DNA from: Roseofilum casamattae BLCC-M143
GTDB lineage: Bacteria > Cyanobacteriota > Cyanobacteriia > Cyanobacteriales > Desertifilaceae
DNA: 62,634 bases
Direction of reading: 5' to 3'
Assembly (NCBI RefSeq): GCF_030068455.1
Contig: NZ_JAQOSQ010000023.1
Span: 1-62,634 of the forward strand
Translations under genes and position numbers: made by a program
Part shown: positions 1 to 37,660 of the stretch, in pieces
Numbering within the stretch: the first letter of the stretch is position 1
How the letters are laid out: every line of letters begins with the position of its first letter
Notes under the pieces: model-generated
The model's input: only the letters and a program-made list of their open reading frames with translations
Database searches by the model: none
Told to the model about the DNA's origin: nothing

Positions 1-534
1 CAACCACCCCTCAACCCAACCTACAGCGAGAAGAACTCTCCACTTCTGCTGGAGCGGAAACGGGAGCAACCAACCCTCAACCCAACCTACAGCGAGAAGA
101 ACTCTCCCCTTCTGCTGGAGCGGAAACGGGAGCAACCAACCCTCAACCCAACCTACAGCGAGAAGAACTCTCCACTTCTGCTGGAGCGGAAACGGGAGCA
201 ACCAACCCTCAACCCAACCTACAGCGAGAAGAACTCTCCACTTCTGCTGGAGCGGAAACGGGAGAAACCCGCACTCAACCCAACCTACAGCGAGAAGAAC
301 TCTCCCCTTCTGCTGGAGCGGAAACGGGAGAAACCCGCACTCAACCCAACCTACAGCGAGAAGAACTCTCCACTTCTGACAACACTCCCCCTTCTGCTGG
401 AGCGGAAACGGGAGCAACCCGCACTCAACCCAACCTACAGCGAGAAGAACTCTCCACTTCTGCTGGAGCGGAAACGGGAGCAACCCGCACTCAACCCAAC
501 CTACAGCGAGAAGTATTATCAACTTCTGTAGAAA
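1..534 (+). repeat. Tandem 66-bp coding repeats, about eight units
   Basis: Units begin at 1, 67, 133, 199, 265, 331, 415 and 481; the last is incomplete. Each is 66 bp and encodes 22 residues containing the core PQPNLQREELS. The unit starting at 331 is 84 bp because it carries an extra 18 bp that repeats part of the unit, so the frame is kept. Copies differ by only a few bases, mainly CAACCAACC versus AAACCCGCA at the junction and CCA versus CCC in the middle. Such homogeneity suggests recent expansion. The array runs off the left edge, so the true copy number is unknown. Confidence 0.95.
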
Positions 535-1064
535 CTCTATCGAGTAATCTTGAAGGATTGTCATCTGTTCAACCGCGAGTGGCACGAAAGTTACCAGAAA
601 GGGGAGATATGTCTCAAGATATATCTCCTGAGAGGAGTAACAGTTTTGTTTCTGCTATGGGTAATACTGGTAGGCAAAACGAGGCAATGAATGTGAAAAA
701 GTCAATGTTATTTCCTCCAGGGATTTCTATGGGAGCAAAGGGTGATGTTTCTAGTAGTGATTTTACTAATCAACCTAAAGACCTGAAAGCATTGATTCAA
801 CAGTCTTTGAAGGCGAAAAGTGAGCTAAAGGAAAAACTCGATCGCCGTAAAGCAGTTCAGGTAAAACCGATCGCACCTAATGAGATAGGCTTGTATAATA
901 CATTGCAAGGAGTTAAGCAAGAGGAGAAGGAGGAGGAAAAAGAGGAAGATAAAACGGATAATGTTGAATTACTGGCTAGGGAAATTTATCAGTTAGTGCG
1001 TCAACGATTTCAGATCGAACAAGAGCGATACGGGCCATCTTACTCTGGTCGTTTGCCTTGGTAG
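1..1064 (+). CDS. Repeat-rich protein of the contractile injection locus, 5' end outside window
   Basis: The reading frame is open from base 3 through the whole repeat array to the stop at 1062-1064, giving at least 353 codons with no start needed inside the window. The N-terminal part seen here is the 22-residue repeat, rich in Pro, Gln, Glu, Thr and Ala and probably disordered. A linker follows (PGISMGAKGDV, then a charged KEEEKEEDK stretch). The last 30 or so residues look like a compact amphipathic helix (ELLAREIYQLVRQRFQIEQE). I do not recognise the family. The gene ends 44 bp before the CIS tube gene on the same strand, so a structural or accessory role in the injection system is inferred from context. 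A start at TTG 558 would be artificial, because the upstream repeats are in frame. Confidence 0.75.
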   Translation, partial: TTPQPNLQREELSTSAGAETGATNPQPNLQREELSPSAGAETGATNPQPNLQREELSTSAGAETGATNPQPNLQREELSTSAGAETGETRTQPNLQREELSPSAGAETGETRTQPNLQREELSTSDNTPPSAGAETGATRTQPNLQREELSTSAGAETGATRTQPNLQREVLSTSVETLSSNLEGLSSVQPRVARKLPERGDMSQDISPERSNSFVSAMGNTGRQNEAMNVKKSMLFPPGISMGAKGDVSSSDFTNQPKDLKALIQQSLKAKSELKEKLDRRKAVQVKPIAPNEIGLYNTLQGVKQEEKEEEKEEDKTDNVELLAREIYQLVRQRFQIEQERYGPSYSGRLPW

Positions 1065-1108
1065 TTTGCTTACATGGAAATGATTAAGAAATAAGGAGAC
1101 TTATTATT

Positions 1109-1987
1109 ATGGGTATTACTTCTGCGCTTTCGAGCACCATGACATCAGCTTTAAAGGGGGCTGTGCTGAATACAGCGGATACCCTGATGTTGCAAGAGGC
1201 CATATCTGTCGATCAAGAGCGCGAAAATGTCTATGATATTTTAGAGGCTCAGAAGCAGAAGGAAGCCTTGCAACTGTATCAACAGCAGTTTATGCAAGGG
1301 GATGTGCGCTTAGTAAAAGCGGCTTTAATTCCTAGGGATGGAGAGGCCAGTAGCATTATCCGGTTTATGTTTAATCCGGAAGAGTTGCGCTTTAACCGCA
1401 GCGTGAAAATTGAGGATATGCAGGGAGCAAGAACGGAGCGAGGATTGCCGAAAGTTAACTTTGGGTTTGTCGAACCTTATAAACTTACGCTGTCTAATTT
1501 GATTTTCGATACTTATGAATCGGGAACCAATGTGTTGGCTCAAATTCAACCTCTGTTAGATGCGGTCGATTTTACTTCATTCAAAGACCCGTTTGACAAG
1601 CAATCGGTCACTGTTAATGGGCAGACTTATACTTACCAAGAGAGGACTCTTGCCGTTTCTCTCGATACTACTGTTGTTTCTTCAGCGGTAAAAACAGTAA
1701 GTGGCGTGGATGTTTATGGACTGGAAGAATATGGCTCGGAAAATTTAGCAAAACAAGCGATTGAGTTAAGGCGACCTCCGGTGTTTTATTTCATCTGGGG
1801 TGAAAAGATTTATATGTGTTGTATGGTGGAGTCTCTTGACTATAGTTTAAATATGTTCCGACCGAATGGGATACCCGTGCGAGCTGTGGTAACGTTGAAC
1901 TTAAAAGAGGTCGATCTTGGTGTTGCCAGTCGTTCCTTTAGCGAGCGTCAGAGCTTTGTCCAAGGGGCTGCTAGTTCTGGTGCCTAA
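1109..1987 (+). CDS. Contractile injection system tube-binding protein (CIS_tube, Afp7/Pvc7-like)
   Basis: The protein has 292 residues. The central stretch, IIRFMFNPEELRFNRSV followed by FGFVEPYKLTLSNLIFDTYESGTNV, is the signature I know from the CIS tube protein N-terminal family (Afp7/Pvc7, related to gp53/LysM-type baseplate adaptors). In that family the protein joins the inner tube to the spike and baseplate. The C-terminal half (PPVFYFIWGEKIYMCCMVESLDYS) fits the same family. A good ribosome site, AAGGAG, lies 12-14 bases before the ATG. The VgrG-like spike gene follows 25 bp downstream, which is the usual order in extracellular and thylakoid-anchored CIS clusters. The family call is strong. 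Whether the machine is thylakoid-anchored cannot be decided from these genes alone. Confidence 0.85.
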   Translation: MGITSALSSTMTSALKGAVLNTADTLMLQEAISVDQERENVYDILEAQKQKEALQLYQQQFMQGDVRLVKAALIPRDGEASSIIRFMFNPEELRFNRSVKIEDMQGARTERGLPKVNFGFVEPYKLTLSNLIFDTYESGTNVLAQIQPLLDAVDFTSFKDPFDKQSVTVNGQTYTYQERTLAVSLDTTVVSSAVKTVSGVDVYGLEEYGSENLAKQAIELRRPPVFYFIWGEKIYMCCMVESLDYSLNMFRPNGIPVRAVVTLNLKEVDLGVASRSFSERQSFVQGAASSGA

Positions 1988-2012
1988 TATCAATATATTG
2001 GAGAGTTAAGCG

Positions 2013-4268
2013 ATGGCTAATAATACTCTGTTGGTCTCTACGCCTTTGGTGGAAATTGAGGGGGCAACTCAGGATGAGATAAGTAAATTTATGCGGGATA
2101 TTTTGCAAATTTCGGTGGAGGAAAGTTTGCATTTACCCAGTATGTTTACTCTCGTGGTGAATAATCCTTACAGTCCATTAGATGAAGAAACAGAAACTTG
2201 GCAGCACGATCGCTTAATTCAAATTGGTAAAAAAGTTCGCATTGGCTTCATTGAAAGTACGGCACAGGAGAGTGAAACAGCCAGTCAAGATTATTTGATT
2301 GATGGGGAAATTACAGGGATTGAAACTCATTTTACGAATACGACTCAGGCTCCAATTGTGATTCGCGGATACGACCTCTCTCATCGCTTCCATCGCGGAC
2401 GTTATAATCGCTCGTTTCAGGATTATACGGATAGTGATATTGTCAAGAAAGTTGCTCGAGAAATGGGGATAACTGCGGGTCAGGTGGATGATAGTCGCAA
2501 AACTCATCAATATGTGTTTCAGGAAAACCAAACTAATATGGAGTTTTTGCGCGAACGGGCGGCTCGGATTGGATTTGAGCTGTTTATCCAAGATGGACAG
2601 CTCCATTTTCGCAAACCGATGGAAAATGAGGTGTTGCAACTGGCGTGGCTGACGGATGTGGAAAATTTTCGGGTGCGGGTGACGAGTTCGGAGAAGGTGG
2701 ATTCGGTGGAGGTGCGCAGTTGGGACTATCAACACAAGAAGCCGATTGTGGCTCGAGTGGAGAATCATGACTTGATTACGAATGTGGAAGGGAAAGGGGA
2801 GGGGATTATCGATACGAGCGATCGCAACGATGCGAGTCTCCTGTTTATTGATAGTAACTTCGGCTCTAATTTGCCGTCTCCGAAATTGATTGTGGTGGAT
2901 AAACCGGTGGCGAGTCCGGATGAAGCGGATGTGATGGCTCAGGCGATTTACGACGAGCTGGGGGGGGAGTTTATTTATGCGGATGCTCAGGCTAATGGCA
3001 ATCCTTTGATTCGGGTGGGTAAGGTGGTGGAGCTGACGCAGATGGGGCGTTATAGTGGCAAGTATTACGTGACGGAAACTCGCCATTTGTATTATCAAGG
3101 GATTTATACGACGGAGTTTAGCGTGCGCGGGACTCGGGGCGGTTCTATTTTTGACGTACTTTCGCCGAATAACCGCTTGCGACCGGGACAAACGTTGATG
3201 GTGGGTATTGTGACGCACAATCGCGATCCGGAGGGGTTGGGACGAGTGCGAGTGAAGTTTCCGACGTTGAATCCGGAGCCGGATGGAAGCGCTCATGCGA
3301 GTCAGTGGGCGAGGGTTGTGGGTGTGGGGGCCGGCCAGCATCGGGGGTTTGATTGTTTGCCGGAAATTAATGATGAGGTGTTGGTAGCTTTCGAGCATGG
3401 AGACGTGCATCGTCCTTATGTGATTGGAGGGTTGTGGAATGGGAAGGATAAGCCACCAGAACGGGTAAATGAGACGATTTCGGCGGGGGGAAAGGTGCGG
3501 TTGCGCACGTTTAAGACGCCGACGGGACATATGTTGCAGTTTGTGGAGGAAGATCGTTATGGCAGTCAGGATGGGGTTTATTTACGGACGAGTGGGGGTC
3601 ACGAACTGCGGCTGAATGATAGCGATCGCTCTCTCGAAATTAGCACGACGGGCAATAACCGGATTCGCTTCGACGATCGCAACCAACGCATCGAAATCCA
3701 CACCCGAGGCGGCCAGCAATACATTCTGGACGATGCGCGGCAAAATGTGACAATGAAATCCAATGGTAGCATTAATCTCAATAGTGCTAGAGGAGTGCAA
3801 GTGAATCCCGGTGTGGGTCAAATGTCGGTATCCGGACATCTGAGCAGTCAAACATTGACGACGGGACAACTGATTGTCGGATTGGGGGCAAATCAAGTTA
3901 ATGTGGGGGAAGCGATCGCCGGATTGCAGCAACAAGTCAATCGCCAACAACAGCAGTTCCAGACCTACGTCCAAGACCAGCAGACCCTAGACCAACAGCA
4001 GGATGCCGCTCGCCAAGCTCTGGCGCAAAAGCTGCAACAGGCGCAAAATCAAGCGACGCAATTGACACAGACGCAACAACAATTGCTACAACAGCAACAA
4101 GTTCAACAGGCGATCGACCAACAGCAAAATCTGGCATTGCAGCAAGCCCAAAATCAACTGCAAAATCTGACCAATCCGCTCTCGCAACTAGCCACTCCTA
4201 GTCCGAATCCCAGTCCAACACCAGCTCCAGCACCAACTCCGACCCCCACGCCAACTCCAGCACCATAA
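2013..4268 (+). CDS. VgrG/Afp8-like spike protein of contractile injection system
   Basis: The 751-residue protein has the VgrG plan. Residues 1-390 are gp27/gpD-like (FQENQTNMEFLRERAARIG). An OB-fold gp5 domain starts near residue 400 (GIVTHNRDPEGLGRVRVKFP, then PEINDEVLVAFEHGD and YVIGGLWNG). A beta-helical stalk follows at about 510-605 (HELRLNDSDRSLEIS, NNRIRFDDRNQRIEIHT). After the stalk comes an unusual tail: a Gln-rich, probably coiled-coil segment (about 640-720) and then a Pro-Thr-rich end (PTPTPTPTPAP). Trimeric VgrG proteins form the puncturing spike at the tube tip and can carry effectors on C-terminal extensions. The gene is probably cotranscribed with the tube gene 25 bp upstream. 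No enzymatic domain is visible in the tail. Confidence 0.9.
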   Translation: MANNTLLVSTPLVEIEGATQDEISKFMRDILQISVEESLHLPSMFTLVVNNPYSPLDEETETWQHDRLIQIGKKVRIGFIESTAQESETASQDYLIDGEITGIETHFTNTTQAPIVIRGYDLSHRFHRGRYNRSFQDYTDSDIVKKVAREMGITAGQVDDSRKTHQYVFQENQTNMEFLRERAARIGFELFIQDGQLHFRKPMENEVLQLAWLTDVENFRVRVTSSEKVDSVEVRSWDYQHKKPIVARVENHDLITNVEGKGEGIIDTSDRNDASLLFIDSNFGSNLPSPKLIVVDKPVASPDEADVMAQAIYDELGGEFIYADAQANGNPLIRVGKVVELTQMGRYSGKYYVTETRHLYYQGIYTTEFSVRGTRGGSIFDVLSPNNRLRPGQTLMVGIVTHNRDPEGLGRVRVKFPTLNPEPDGSAHASQWARVVGVGAGQHRGFDCLPEINDEVLVAFEHGDVHRPYVIGGLWNGKDKPPERVNETISAGGKVRLRTFKTPTGHMLQFVEEDRYGSQDGVYLRTSGGHELRLNDSDRSLEISTTGNNRIRFDDRNQRIEIHTRGGQQYILDDARQNVTMKSNGSINLNSARGVQVNPGVGQMSVSGHLSSQTLTTGQLIVGLGANQVNVGEAIAGLQQQVNRQQQQFQTYVQDQQTLDQQQDAARQALAQKLQQAQNQATQLTQTQQQLLQQQQVQQAIDQQQNLALQQAQNQLQNLTNPLSQLATPSPNPSPTPAPAPTPTPTPTPAP

Positions 4269-4296: not shown

Positions 4297-4953
4297 ATGG
4301 TTCAAATTCCTTCGACCTCGCAAACTCTCTATCCAGATTCTGATGGTAAACCTATGGCTGAAAATACGGTTCAGTATCGTTGGATTGTGCGCTTGGTGAG
4401 CAATTTAAGACGCTTATTTACCGGACAAAATGTCTTTGTGGCTGGGGATTTACTCTGGTATCCCGTCCGGGTGGAGGTTCCTCCAGCTCCCTCCCTAGCT
4501 CCTGATGCCATGGTTGTTTTCGGGCGACCTCCGGGCGATCGCGGAAGCTATAAGCAATGGGAAGAAGATAATATGGCGCCGCAAGTGGTTTTCGAGATTT
4601 TGTCTCCCAGTAATACCCGCAGCGAGATGCTGGCAAAACAGACGTTTTATCAGCAATATGGGGTACTGGAGATGTTTTTCTACGACCCAGAATCCCGAGA
4701 TTTTTGGGGATTTGCGCGCGGAAGTGTTGAGGAAGAATTTATGTTAATTACCCCTCTGAATTTACCTTGGACTTCTCCTTTGCTGCAAATTCGTTTTGAG
4801 TTATTTGCTGACGGTTTAGCGGTATTTTATCCGAATGGGGAACCGTTTCAAGATCCCGAGGAAGTGATGGAGGAGCGCGATCGAATACAGGAAGAGCGCG
4901 ATCGGGCGATCGCCAAACTTCGAGAACTGGGTATCGATCCTAACCAACTTTAG
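4297..4953 (+). CDS. Uma2 family (DUF820) endonuclease-like protein
   Basis: The 218-residue protein belongs to the restriction-endonuclease-like Uma2 family, which is greatly expanded in cyanobacteria. The core is visible as SLAPDAMVVFG (the Asp of the PD-(D/E)XK fold), then PQVVFEILSPSNTRSEMLAKQTFYQQYGVLEMFFYDPE, cited here for its order of Glu, Ser-Pro-Ser and Lys residues. The C-terminus has a charged helix with an ERDRIQEERDRA repeat, a common ending in this family. It lies 28 bp after the VgrG gene on the same strand, but such genes are scattered in cyanobacterial genomes, so a link with the injection system is not implied. The substrate is unknown. Confidence 0.85.
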   Translation: MVQIPSTSQTLYPDSDGKPMAENTVQYRWIVRLVSNLRRLFTGQNVFVAGDLLWYPVRVEVPPAPSLAPDAMVVFGRPPGDRGSYKQWEEDNMAPQVVFEILSPSNTRSEMLAKQTFYQQYGVLEMFFYDPESRDFWGFARGSVEEEFMLITPLNLPWTSPLLQIRFELFADGLAVFYPNGEPFQDPEEVMEERDRIQEERDRAIAKLRELGIDPNQL

Positions 4954-36808: not shown

Positions 36809-37660
36809 ATGAAAACCGATACCTTCTTCTACCAAATCTTCCAACAATTCCCGCAATTCTTCTTTGAACTATGCAACCTGCCCAGCAGCACCGCCAACAA
36901 CTACACCTTCACCTCCATCGAAGTCAAACAACTCGCCTTCCGCATCGACGGCCTCTTTCTCCCCACCAACAACGATCCCAAGCTTCCCCTCTACCTCGTC
37001 GAAATCCAATTTCAACCCGACTCCAACCTCTACTACCGCCTCTTTAGCGAACTCTTCCTCTACCTCAGACAATACCAGCCCCAACATCCTTGGCGCATCG
37101 TCGTTATCTATCCCAACCGCACCATCGAACCCGAAAGCAAACCCCACTTCACCGAACTCCTCACCCTTCCCAACGTCACCCGCATCTACTTGAACGAGAT
37201 GCCTCCAACCTCCCTCGGAGTCGGCATCATCCAACTCATCCTGGAACCTGCCAACCGCGCTCCCGAAACTGCCCTCACCCTAGTCGAACAAGCCAAAGCA
37301 CAACTCAACCAAACCCAAGTGCGCGATCGCCTGATTAACTTAATCGAAACTATAATTGTCTATAAACTCCCCAACAAAAGCCGAGAGGAAATTGCCGCCA
37401 TGCTAGGACTAAGCGACCTCAAACAAACTCGAGTTTACCAAGATGCCCTCGCCGAAGGTATCGAACAAGGCATCGAACAAGGTATCGAACAAGGCATCGA
37501 ACAAGGCATCGAACAAGGCATCGAACAAGGCATCGAACAAACACAACGCCAAGCCATTTCCGCGATGTTTGGTCTTGGCATTACCCCAGAAACCATTGCC
37601 GAGTCCTTGAATCTCCCTTTGGTAACCGTGACCAACATCCTGGGCGAACAAAATAACTAA
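36809..37660 (+). CDS. Rpn-family (DUF2887-type) nuclease-like protein with GIEQ repeats
   Basis: From the ATG at 36809 the protein has 283 residues; an ATG at 36782 adds nine residues across a GCGATCGC site. It begins MKTDTFFYQIFQQFPQFFFE, then FRIDGLFLPT (catalytic-type Asp) and LYLVEIQFQPDSNLYYRLFS (Glu-x-Gln), the PD-(D/E)XK core of the Rpn/DUF2887 group. These are recombination-promoting nuclease relatives common in cyanobacteria. Near the C-terminus are seven copies of Gly-Ile-Glu-Gln, then a short helix-turn-helix-like end (GITPETIAESLNLPLVTVTN). The repeats may vary in number between strains. Confidence 0.85.
   Translation: MKTDTFFYQIFQQFPQFFFELCNLPSSTANNYTFTSIEVKQLAFRIDGLFLPTNNDPKLPLYLVEIQFQPDSNLYYRLFSELFLYLRQYQPQHPWRIVVIYPNRTIEPESKPHFTELLTLPNVTRIYLNEMPPTSLGVGIIQLILEPANRAPETALTLVEQAKAQLNQTQVRDRLINLIETIIVYKLPNKSREEIAAMLGLSDLKQTRVYQDALAEGIEQGIEQGIEQGIEQGIEQGIEQGIEQTQRQAISAMFGLGITPETIAESLNLPLVTVTNILGEQNN
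37457..37540 (+). repeat. Seven 12-bp tandem repeats coding GIEQ
   Basis: GGCATCGAACAA or GGTATCGAACAA occurs seven times in a row within the Rpn-family gene. The unit is a multiple of three, so copy changes keep the frame. Confidence 0.95.

Follow-up and report, generated by a model that had tools for sequence, protein, structure and literature searches.

The contractile injection system (CIS) of the cyanobacterium Roseofilum casamattae BLCC-M143 includes a long tandem-repeat protein whose gene is located at the position of Cis6, the spike plug, between cis5 and cis7. The window analyzed here is a stretch of 62,634 nucleotides (G000:C23:1-62634; G, C and L numbers are our handles for genomes, contigs and loci), a contig of a 5.1-Mb genome in 74 contigs, and its position 1 is a contig end lying inside the repeat array of this protein. 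Judging from the sequence comparisons presented below, we give about an even chance to the reading that the repeat protein is a plug-position component of the CIS, having a C-terminal helix anchored in the hub, a disordered chain that reaches into the tube lumen, and motifs resembling those of CIS cargo.

A first-pass annotation of the window had described three consecutive genes on one strand, encoding in turn a protein made of repeats, a CIS_tube protein and a spike of the VgrG type, and this is borne out by the open reading frames (ORFs) and by Pfam and NCBIfam matches that identify the second and third gene as cis7 and cis8 (Table 1). The ORF of the repeat protein (window 3-1064, + strand) is open at its 5' end and has a unique C-terminus after the repeats, with GRLPW as its last residues. 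The openness of this frame alone is no proof of coding, because other frames across the repeat are open too (forward 1-531 and 2-379, reverse 1-585). The frame is backed, however, by an intact gene of 910 amino acids (aa) in a genome of the same genus (G213), with both ends present and an identical gene order, whose C-terminal part is 51% identical to the repeat protein. A chance ORF or a non-coding repeat at the window start was ruled out by such coding homologues. The right end of contig C5 consists of the same 66-bp array (85% identical), the ends of C5 and C23 being the only two matches in the genome, and an ORF of 606 aa (L003:18181-) runs off C5 within this array. Given the shared array and the intact gene in G213, we read the C5 end and the window start as one repeat-protein gene split by the assembly. 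The protein would thus comprise at least 606 + 353 aa, plus an unspecified number of further repeats. When parts of the repeat protein and of homologous proteins were compared with Pfam, NCBIfam and PHROGs, nothing meaningful was found, the match to phrog_31419 (E 7e-4) being a 15-residue stretch.

The gene order cis5, repeat protein, cis7, cis8 is found in the window genome and in relatives. Among 386 cyanobacterial genomes, 24 match a Cis7 query and 24 match a profile of the C-terminal helix (A1), 23 of the latter also having a Cis7 match; as A1 was built from 17 of its 24 matched genomes, the informative part of this comparison is the other seven together with the 362 misses. The two sets differ by G058, whose phage-like locus lacks a helix match, and by G043, in which the match is weak. 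The repeat protein is therefore not widespread away from CIS loci, as the first-pass annotation had required of a CIS component. A scan of a named collection covering all species, by Cis7 alignment, kept the best 80 of 87 relatives and gave 79 named Cis7 loci, every one with a cyanobacterial title. With the repeat protein itself only this phylum was searched, and its proposed cyanobacterial character is supported to that extent. In 64 of the 79 loci the helix gene ends within 800 bases upstream of cis7; of the 15 without it upstream of cis7, four have fewer than 200 bases of upstream sequence and 11 have more. In G352, the helix gene is found elsewhere, beside cis5 and the gene of a pseudokinase-like membrane protein discussed below.

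The plug-position proteins share one layout, in which a low-complexity and often tandemly repeated middle part precedes the C-terminal helix; alignment of the N- and C-termini showed the helix to be conserved. Forty-five helix ORFs not open at the 5' end range from 129 to 2568 aa (median 1112), but include pieces, since at least L218, L240 and L257 have the N-terminal part as a separate upstream ORF. A stricter test of wholeness, requiring a match to an N-terminal profile or a cis5-like gene next upstream, kept 31 of the 45, although its cis5 pattern misses some cis5 genes, for example before the 129-aa ORF of L259. The 31 ORFs checked in this way measure 270 to 2568 aa (median 1120), a roughly ninefold range. 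Lengths at named loci include 270 aa in Planktothricoides sp. SR001, 971 aa in Nostoc punctiforme NIES-2108 and 2568 aa in Nostoc sp. CMAA1605. A second class of cyanobacterial CIS also has a long plug-position protein, and its helix is related to that of the first (A5 versus A1, hhalign 96%, separate sequences).

Whereas the helix is conserved, the sequence of the repeat middle turns over almost completely. Between G000 and G213, Cis7 is 85% and the pseudokinase-like protein 73% identical, while the repeat units of 22 and 28 aa, respectively, have little in common but LQR. Non-redundant repeat units are 12 to 61 aa long, and the 24 units have no shared 5-mer. A dipeptide motif, [VIL]Q, is nevertheless present in 20 of these 24 units against 10.28 expected by shuffling (tail 1.9e-6), one unit being a masked array of X that was scored as lacking the motif; units of one genus or family do not count as independent events. 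As a control, other tandem-repeat ORFs in the same loci carry [VIL]Q in 7 of 29 cases (4.99 expected), after 14 of 43 rows had been removed by hand as plug-position or cargo pieces or as a shadow frame; before removal the figure was 19 of 43, with 11.83 expected. LQR was noticed by eye ahead of the residue-pair scan, so that some of the data used to assess the motif had already gone into framing the hypothesis. Of nine units whose contigs, judged by their length, lie outside the first set, seven carry [VIL]Q (3.25 expected).

The same motif marks proteins with the eCIS_core domain (DUF4157), the candidate cargo of the system. When all residue pairs spaced 1-3 positions apart were ranked by protein count, QR, LQ and Q.K came out on top for the N-terminal parts of eCIS_core proteins; for the plug linkers the top pairs were I..K, IQ, QP, EI and Q.K, with QR (3.35-fold) and LQ (2.17-fold) lower down. 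Relative to composition, [VIL]Q is enriched 1.95-fold in 24 pooled plug linkers (15 above 1.5-fold) and 2.46-fold in 34 eCIS_core N-terminal parts (31 above 1.5), compared with 1.00-fold in 126 other ORFs (11 above 1.5). The residue after Q varies, being mostly P, K, R, A or T in plugs and R, M, A or P in cargo. Enrichment is weak in three plug-position proteins of the second class (17 versus 10.2 expected, 6 versus 4.1, and 32 versus 29.1).

Domain searches found eCIS_core in 22 of the 22 searched genomes with this type of plug, and in the window genome as well, where seven such domains in three ORFs of 514, 2394 and 2795 aa are cargo candidates. In G019, the plug-position gene (L104:203-1489, 428 aa), which lies upstream of cis7 at a distance of five bases, encodes an eCIS_core domain of its own, scoring 45.8 bits where the cut-off is 22, and its C-terminal helix matches A5 (16.5 bits) and not A1. 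This fusion, a single case, would tie the plug position to cargo. The low-complexity, sometimes tandem, [VIL]Q-rich linkers are common to plug and eCIS_core proteins; unlike the latter, the scanned plug-position proteins other than that of G019 have no eCIS_core domain, and the plug has its helix and a fixed place in the gene order.

Passages of the reports on the CIS of Anabaena and Algoriphagus describe three copies of Cis6/Alg6 that close off the cavity of the spike, adjacent to Cis5 and Cis7, with a flexible loop pointing into the lumen, and state that Alg6 is needed for assembly (PMC8894136, PMC8894135). With the plugs of this family (Cis6/Alg6/Afp6/Pvc6, including Asl3322 and Algo6), which have cyanobacteria among their hosts, the repeat protein shares the position between cis5 and cis7 and a predicted C-terminal helix after a variable linker. 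It differs from them in size, the known short plugs measuring 50-58 aa (50 aa for Asl3322 of Anabaena) and the giant ones about 1,100 aa at the median, and in having no detectable sequence homology to them. Both types can occur in one genome: in G091, a gene for a short plug lies at the CIS locus L101 and one for a giant plug, in two ORFs, at the CIS locus L133. By analogy with the 50-aa plug of Anabaena and Algoriphagus, the short helix of the repeat protein would be lodged in the hub that Cis5, Cis7 and the Cis8 spike form. The long, putatively disordered repeat chain would extend up the lumen of the inner tube, in place of the flexible loop that is small in known plugs. There it could display many copies of the cargo-type motif [VIL]Q[R/K/P], and either bind or co-pack eCIS_core cargo or share its loading machinery. 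At a volume of 0.134 nm3 per residue, three copies of a 1112-aa chain would fill about 49% of a lumen the size of that of AlgoCIS. The dimensions used, 90.2 x 3.6 nm, are those given in a passage of the Algoriphagus report (PMC8894135).

Several observations weigh against this assignment. Homology of the helix to that of the short plug is undetectable (hhalign, profile A4 versus A1 0.2% and versus A5 0.8%), and PDB searches with A1 and A5 gave nothing below E 0.4; homology to solved plugs was not found. Because of the former result we have kept the repeat protein out of the short-plug family, although it sits in the same place and probably works like a plug. The N-terminal segment is only partly conserved, with the N-terminal profile matching 13 of the 45 ORFs, and 11 of the 79 named loci have no helix gene adjoining cis7 despite enough upstream sequence. 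Moreover, the 87-aa protein encoded immediately before cis5 has a helix related to that of the repeat protein (hhalign 93.5%) and could be a competing candidate for the plug itself; its relatives include L052:8844-9110 and L071:12557-12796. Three copies of the longest chain (2568 aa) would occupy 112% of the AlgoCIS-sized lumen, which therefore calls for longer tubes, fewer copies or a chain lying partly outside. As to the motif, [VIL]Q is missing from 5 of 20 arrays; four of these belong to a single genus, in which the units contain no Q. Finally, eCIS_core proteins outside this plug type are also rich in [VIL]Q (1.84-fold, 4 of the 8 ORFs read; of 15 loci, seven had no readable ORF, and one of the eight, L268, is the G019 plug-position protein and not cargo), the two from the short-plug genome G174 having 25 versus 10.6 expected. 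Since the motif also occurs there, it is not a private code between plug and cargo, and the two do not form a lock-and-key pair; cargo in general has the motif, and the giant plug has it too.

Among the alternatives, the one that survives best, though we consider it unlikely, is that the repeat protein replaces the phage tape measure, setting tube length and being wrapped by the tail assembly chaperone before the tube forms. Like a tape measure gene, the repeat-protein gene is long and follows the tube and chaperone genes while preceding those of the CIS_tube and hub proteins. The phage-like locus of G058 (L067) has a tape-measure-like gene, so named by its place and composition, directly before a CIS_tube gene, and the window genome has a tail-assembly-chaperone-like gene (phrog_508, E 1.3e-4). 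Two genes before cis5 in G091, which we take to be gp41-like, were likewise counted in its favor. In addition, a Streptomyces CIS cluster is described, in passages of the report, as having no tape measure gene and yet yielding particles of identical length (PMC12237407). The composition of the chain, on the other hand, ill suits a helical ruler. Phage tape measures are proline-poor chains, whereas the repeat protein consists of tandem repeats rich in P, S and T; in a comparison limited to composition, with one phage protein as yardstick, the plug-position proteins contain 4.9-16.3% P and 27-49% S/T/N/Q against 1.7% P in the phage protein. The ninefold length range likewise speaks against a ruler, and tandem arrays would be expected to be unstable. 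The first-pass annotation had proposed a linker, ruler or anchor from the place of the gene ahead of the tube gene; that place has been sharpened to the Cis6 position, while the ruler fits poorly.

It is less likely still that the repeat protein is itself cargo, with the chain expelled into the target and the helix acting as a docking part. The sharing of [VIL]Q with eCIS_core proteins and the domain fusion in G019 would agree with this, and a plug would have to move when the tube fires; against it, none of the other nine scanned pieces of plug-position proteins has a Pfam domain above cut-off, and their repeats turn over freely. We regard it as very doubtful that [VIL]Q is a putative cleavage site at which plug and cargo linkers are cut by the eCIS_core domain during loading or firing. 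According to passages of two reports, eCIS_core has an HExxH motif (PMC11297309, PMC8213781). The enrichment of [VIL]Q in both plug and cargo and the presence of eCIS_core in every searched plug genome would fit such an activity, but the residue after Q varies. Equally doubtful is the reading that the repeats have expanded without function within a linker, doing the machine no harm: it would account for the extreme turnover and length variation and for G255, in which an ORF inside the repeat array (L053:1204-2469 / L147:13204-14469), presumably transposase-like, splits the plug-position gene, but not for the conservation of the C-terminal helix, and in part of the N-terminus, or for a motif kept beyond chance.

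The repeat protein was also rejected as a thylakoid anchor, an idea raised by the first-pass annotation for which we found no evidence in favor. The thylakoid-anchored CIS of Anabaena, as described in passages of its report, relies on tail fibre and baseplate extensions, with a transmembrane Cis13, an extended Cis12 and a Cis19 crown (PMC8894136), while its plug is the short Asl3322. A better membrane candidate is the pseudokinase-like protein, which has a transmembrane-like segment and a substrate-binding-like part. It is present in 22 of the 386 genomes at E <= 1e-20, all of them among the 24 with the helix profile, and this co-occurrence includes genomes in which its gene is on another contig; in the named loci (flank of up to 10 kb) it was found in 20 of 79. 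Pfam matches are PBP_like_2 (1.1e-11) and, weakly and below cut-off, Pkinase (0.021). In seven aligned homologues, a hydrophobic segment divides two parts and the residues H-G-N are invariant, presumably at the place expected for HRD. Streptomyces CisA, according to passages of the report, is required for CIS contraction and combines a transmembrane segment with a periplasmic domain of substrate-binding type (PMC12237407). The cyanobacterial protein resembles CisA in layout, with an N-terminal part, a transmembrane-like segment, a substrate-binding-like (PstS-like) C-terminal part and a location at a CIS locus; unlike that of CisA, its N-terminal part is kinase-like and not disordered. It is a candidate for a CisA-like role in membrane recruitment.

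A more far-reaching version of the plug reading, which we put forward tentatively and think improbable as a whole, would define a separate class of cyanobacterial CIS. In it, a giant, disordered plug anchored in the hub would serve as an internal cargo rack, its dozens of [VIL]Q[R/K/P] repeats organizing eCIS_core cargo and replacing a tape measure, and the obligate pseudokinase-like partner would recruit the particle to the membrane or fire it there. Neither a giant plug nor a pseudokinase partner of a CIS is described in the titles, abstract openings and passages of the open-access literature that we covered. To our knowledge, how cargo is retained in the CIS tube, and how tube length is controlled without a known tape measure gene, are open questions. 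The ninefold range of plug length between strains constitutes a natural experiment on both. The CisA-like membrane protein, whose co-occurrence with the plug is near-perfect, offers another, independent approach to the question of how cytoplasmic CIS get to a membrane.

That the three genes belong to a CIS, as first proposed, is supported by the remainder of the gene set, which is dispersed over contigs C9, C1, C5 and C23 (the window). Contig C9 carries genes for the cap (Pvc16_N), the sheath, three gp19 tubes and the tail-assembly-chaperone-like protein, and C1 those for gp25, Baseplate_J and Tail_P2_I. Together with Cis5, Cis7 and the Cis8 spike these make up an extracellular-type CIS. Sheath and tube genes had been expected upstream of the three genes; the 38 kb upstream on C5 contain the tube-type Cis5 but no sheath. 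On C5 the genes for the pseudokinase-like protein, the 87-aa helix protein and Cis5 are joined by overlapping start and stop codons, and the repeat-protein gene comes next. The assignment of Cis5 follows CIS5_fam (E 6.8e-25, below the model cut-off) over CIS1_fam (E 1.5e-4). Cis8 has a Q-rich coil and a P/T-rich C-terminal tail.

Table 1. Coordinates of the CIS features in the window and on contig C5
Feature	Position	Strand	Remarks
C-terminal part of the Cis6-position (plug-position) repeat protein	1..1064	+	N-terminal part on contig C5, L003:18181-19998; a genome of the same genus has the homologue intact (L052:5458-8190)
66-bp tandem repeat, 7.7 copies	1..528	+	22-aa unit, one LQRE in each unit
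C-terminal helix, conserved (profile A1); may anchor the protein in the hub of spike and tube initiators	936..1061	+	Helix predicted from sequence pattern; hub location putative
Cis7, second tube-initiator layer	1109..1987	+	CIS_tube PF19266, E 3.7e-17; no LysM match in Pfam
Cis8, VgrG-like spike	2013..4268	+	Phage_base_V, E 1.4e-23; NCBIfam VgrG_rel, E 4.9e-100, above cut-off
Pseudokinase/transmembrane/substrate-binding protein	L003:14589-16991 (C5)		C5 operon
87-aa helix protein	L003:16988-17251 (C5)		Between the pseudokinase gene and cis5
Cis5, tube initiator	L003:17251-18141 (C5)		NCBIfam CIS5_fam

Outside the operon, C5 carries a gene for a protein with AAA and WHD domains (L004:1970-3961), which may be a loader of the Pvc15 type; its matches are to generic AAA models, none over the NCBIfam cut-off. 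The giant ORFs L019:6215-13399 (2394 aa) and L020:2776-11163 (2795 aa) are related to each other and hold three eCIS_core domains each and long linkers containing IQR. An ORF of 516 aa about 5 kb upstream of the pseudokinase gene (L003:8395-9945) has no eCIS_core match, but its N-terminal sequence, with RRK and further on QFGPK, is similar to the start of L021:5068-6612, an eCIS_core protein, making it a possible cargo. In the window itself, a Uma2-family gene (4297-4953) begins 28 bases downstream of the spike gene, and a 12-bp tandem repeat of 7.2 copies with 95% matches occupies positions 37455-37540.

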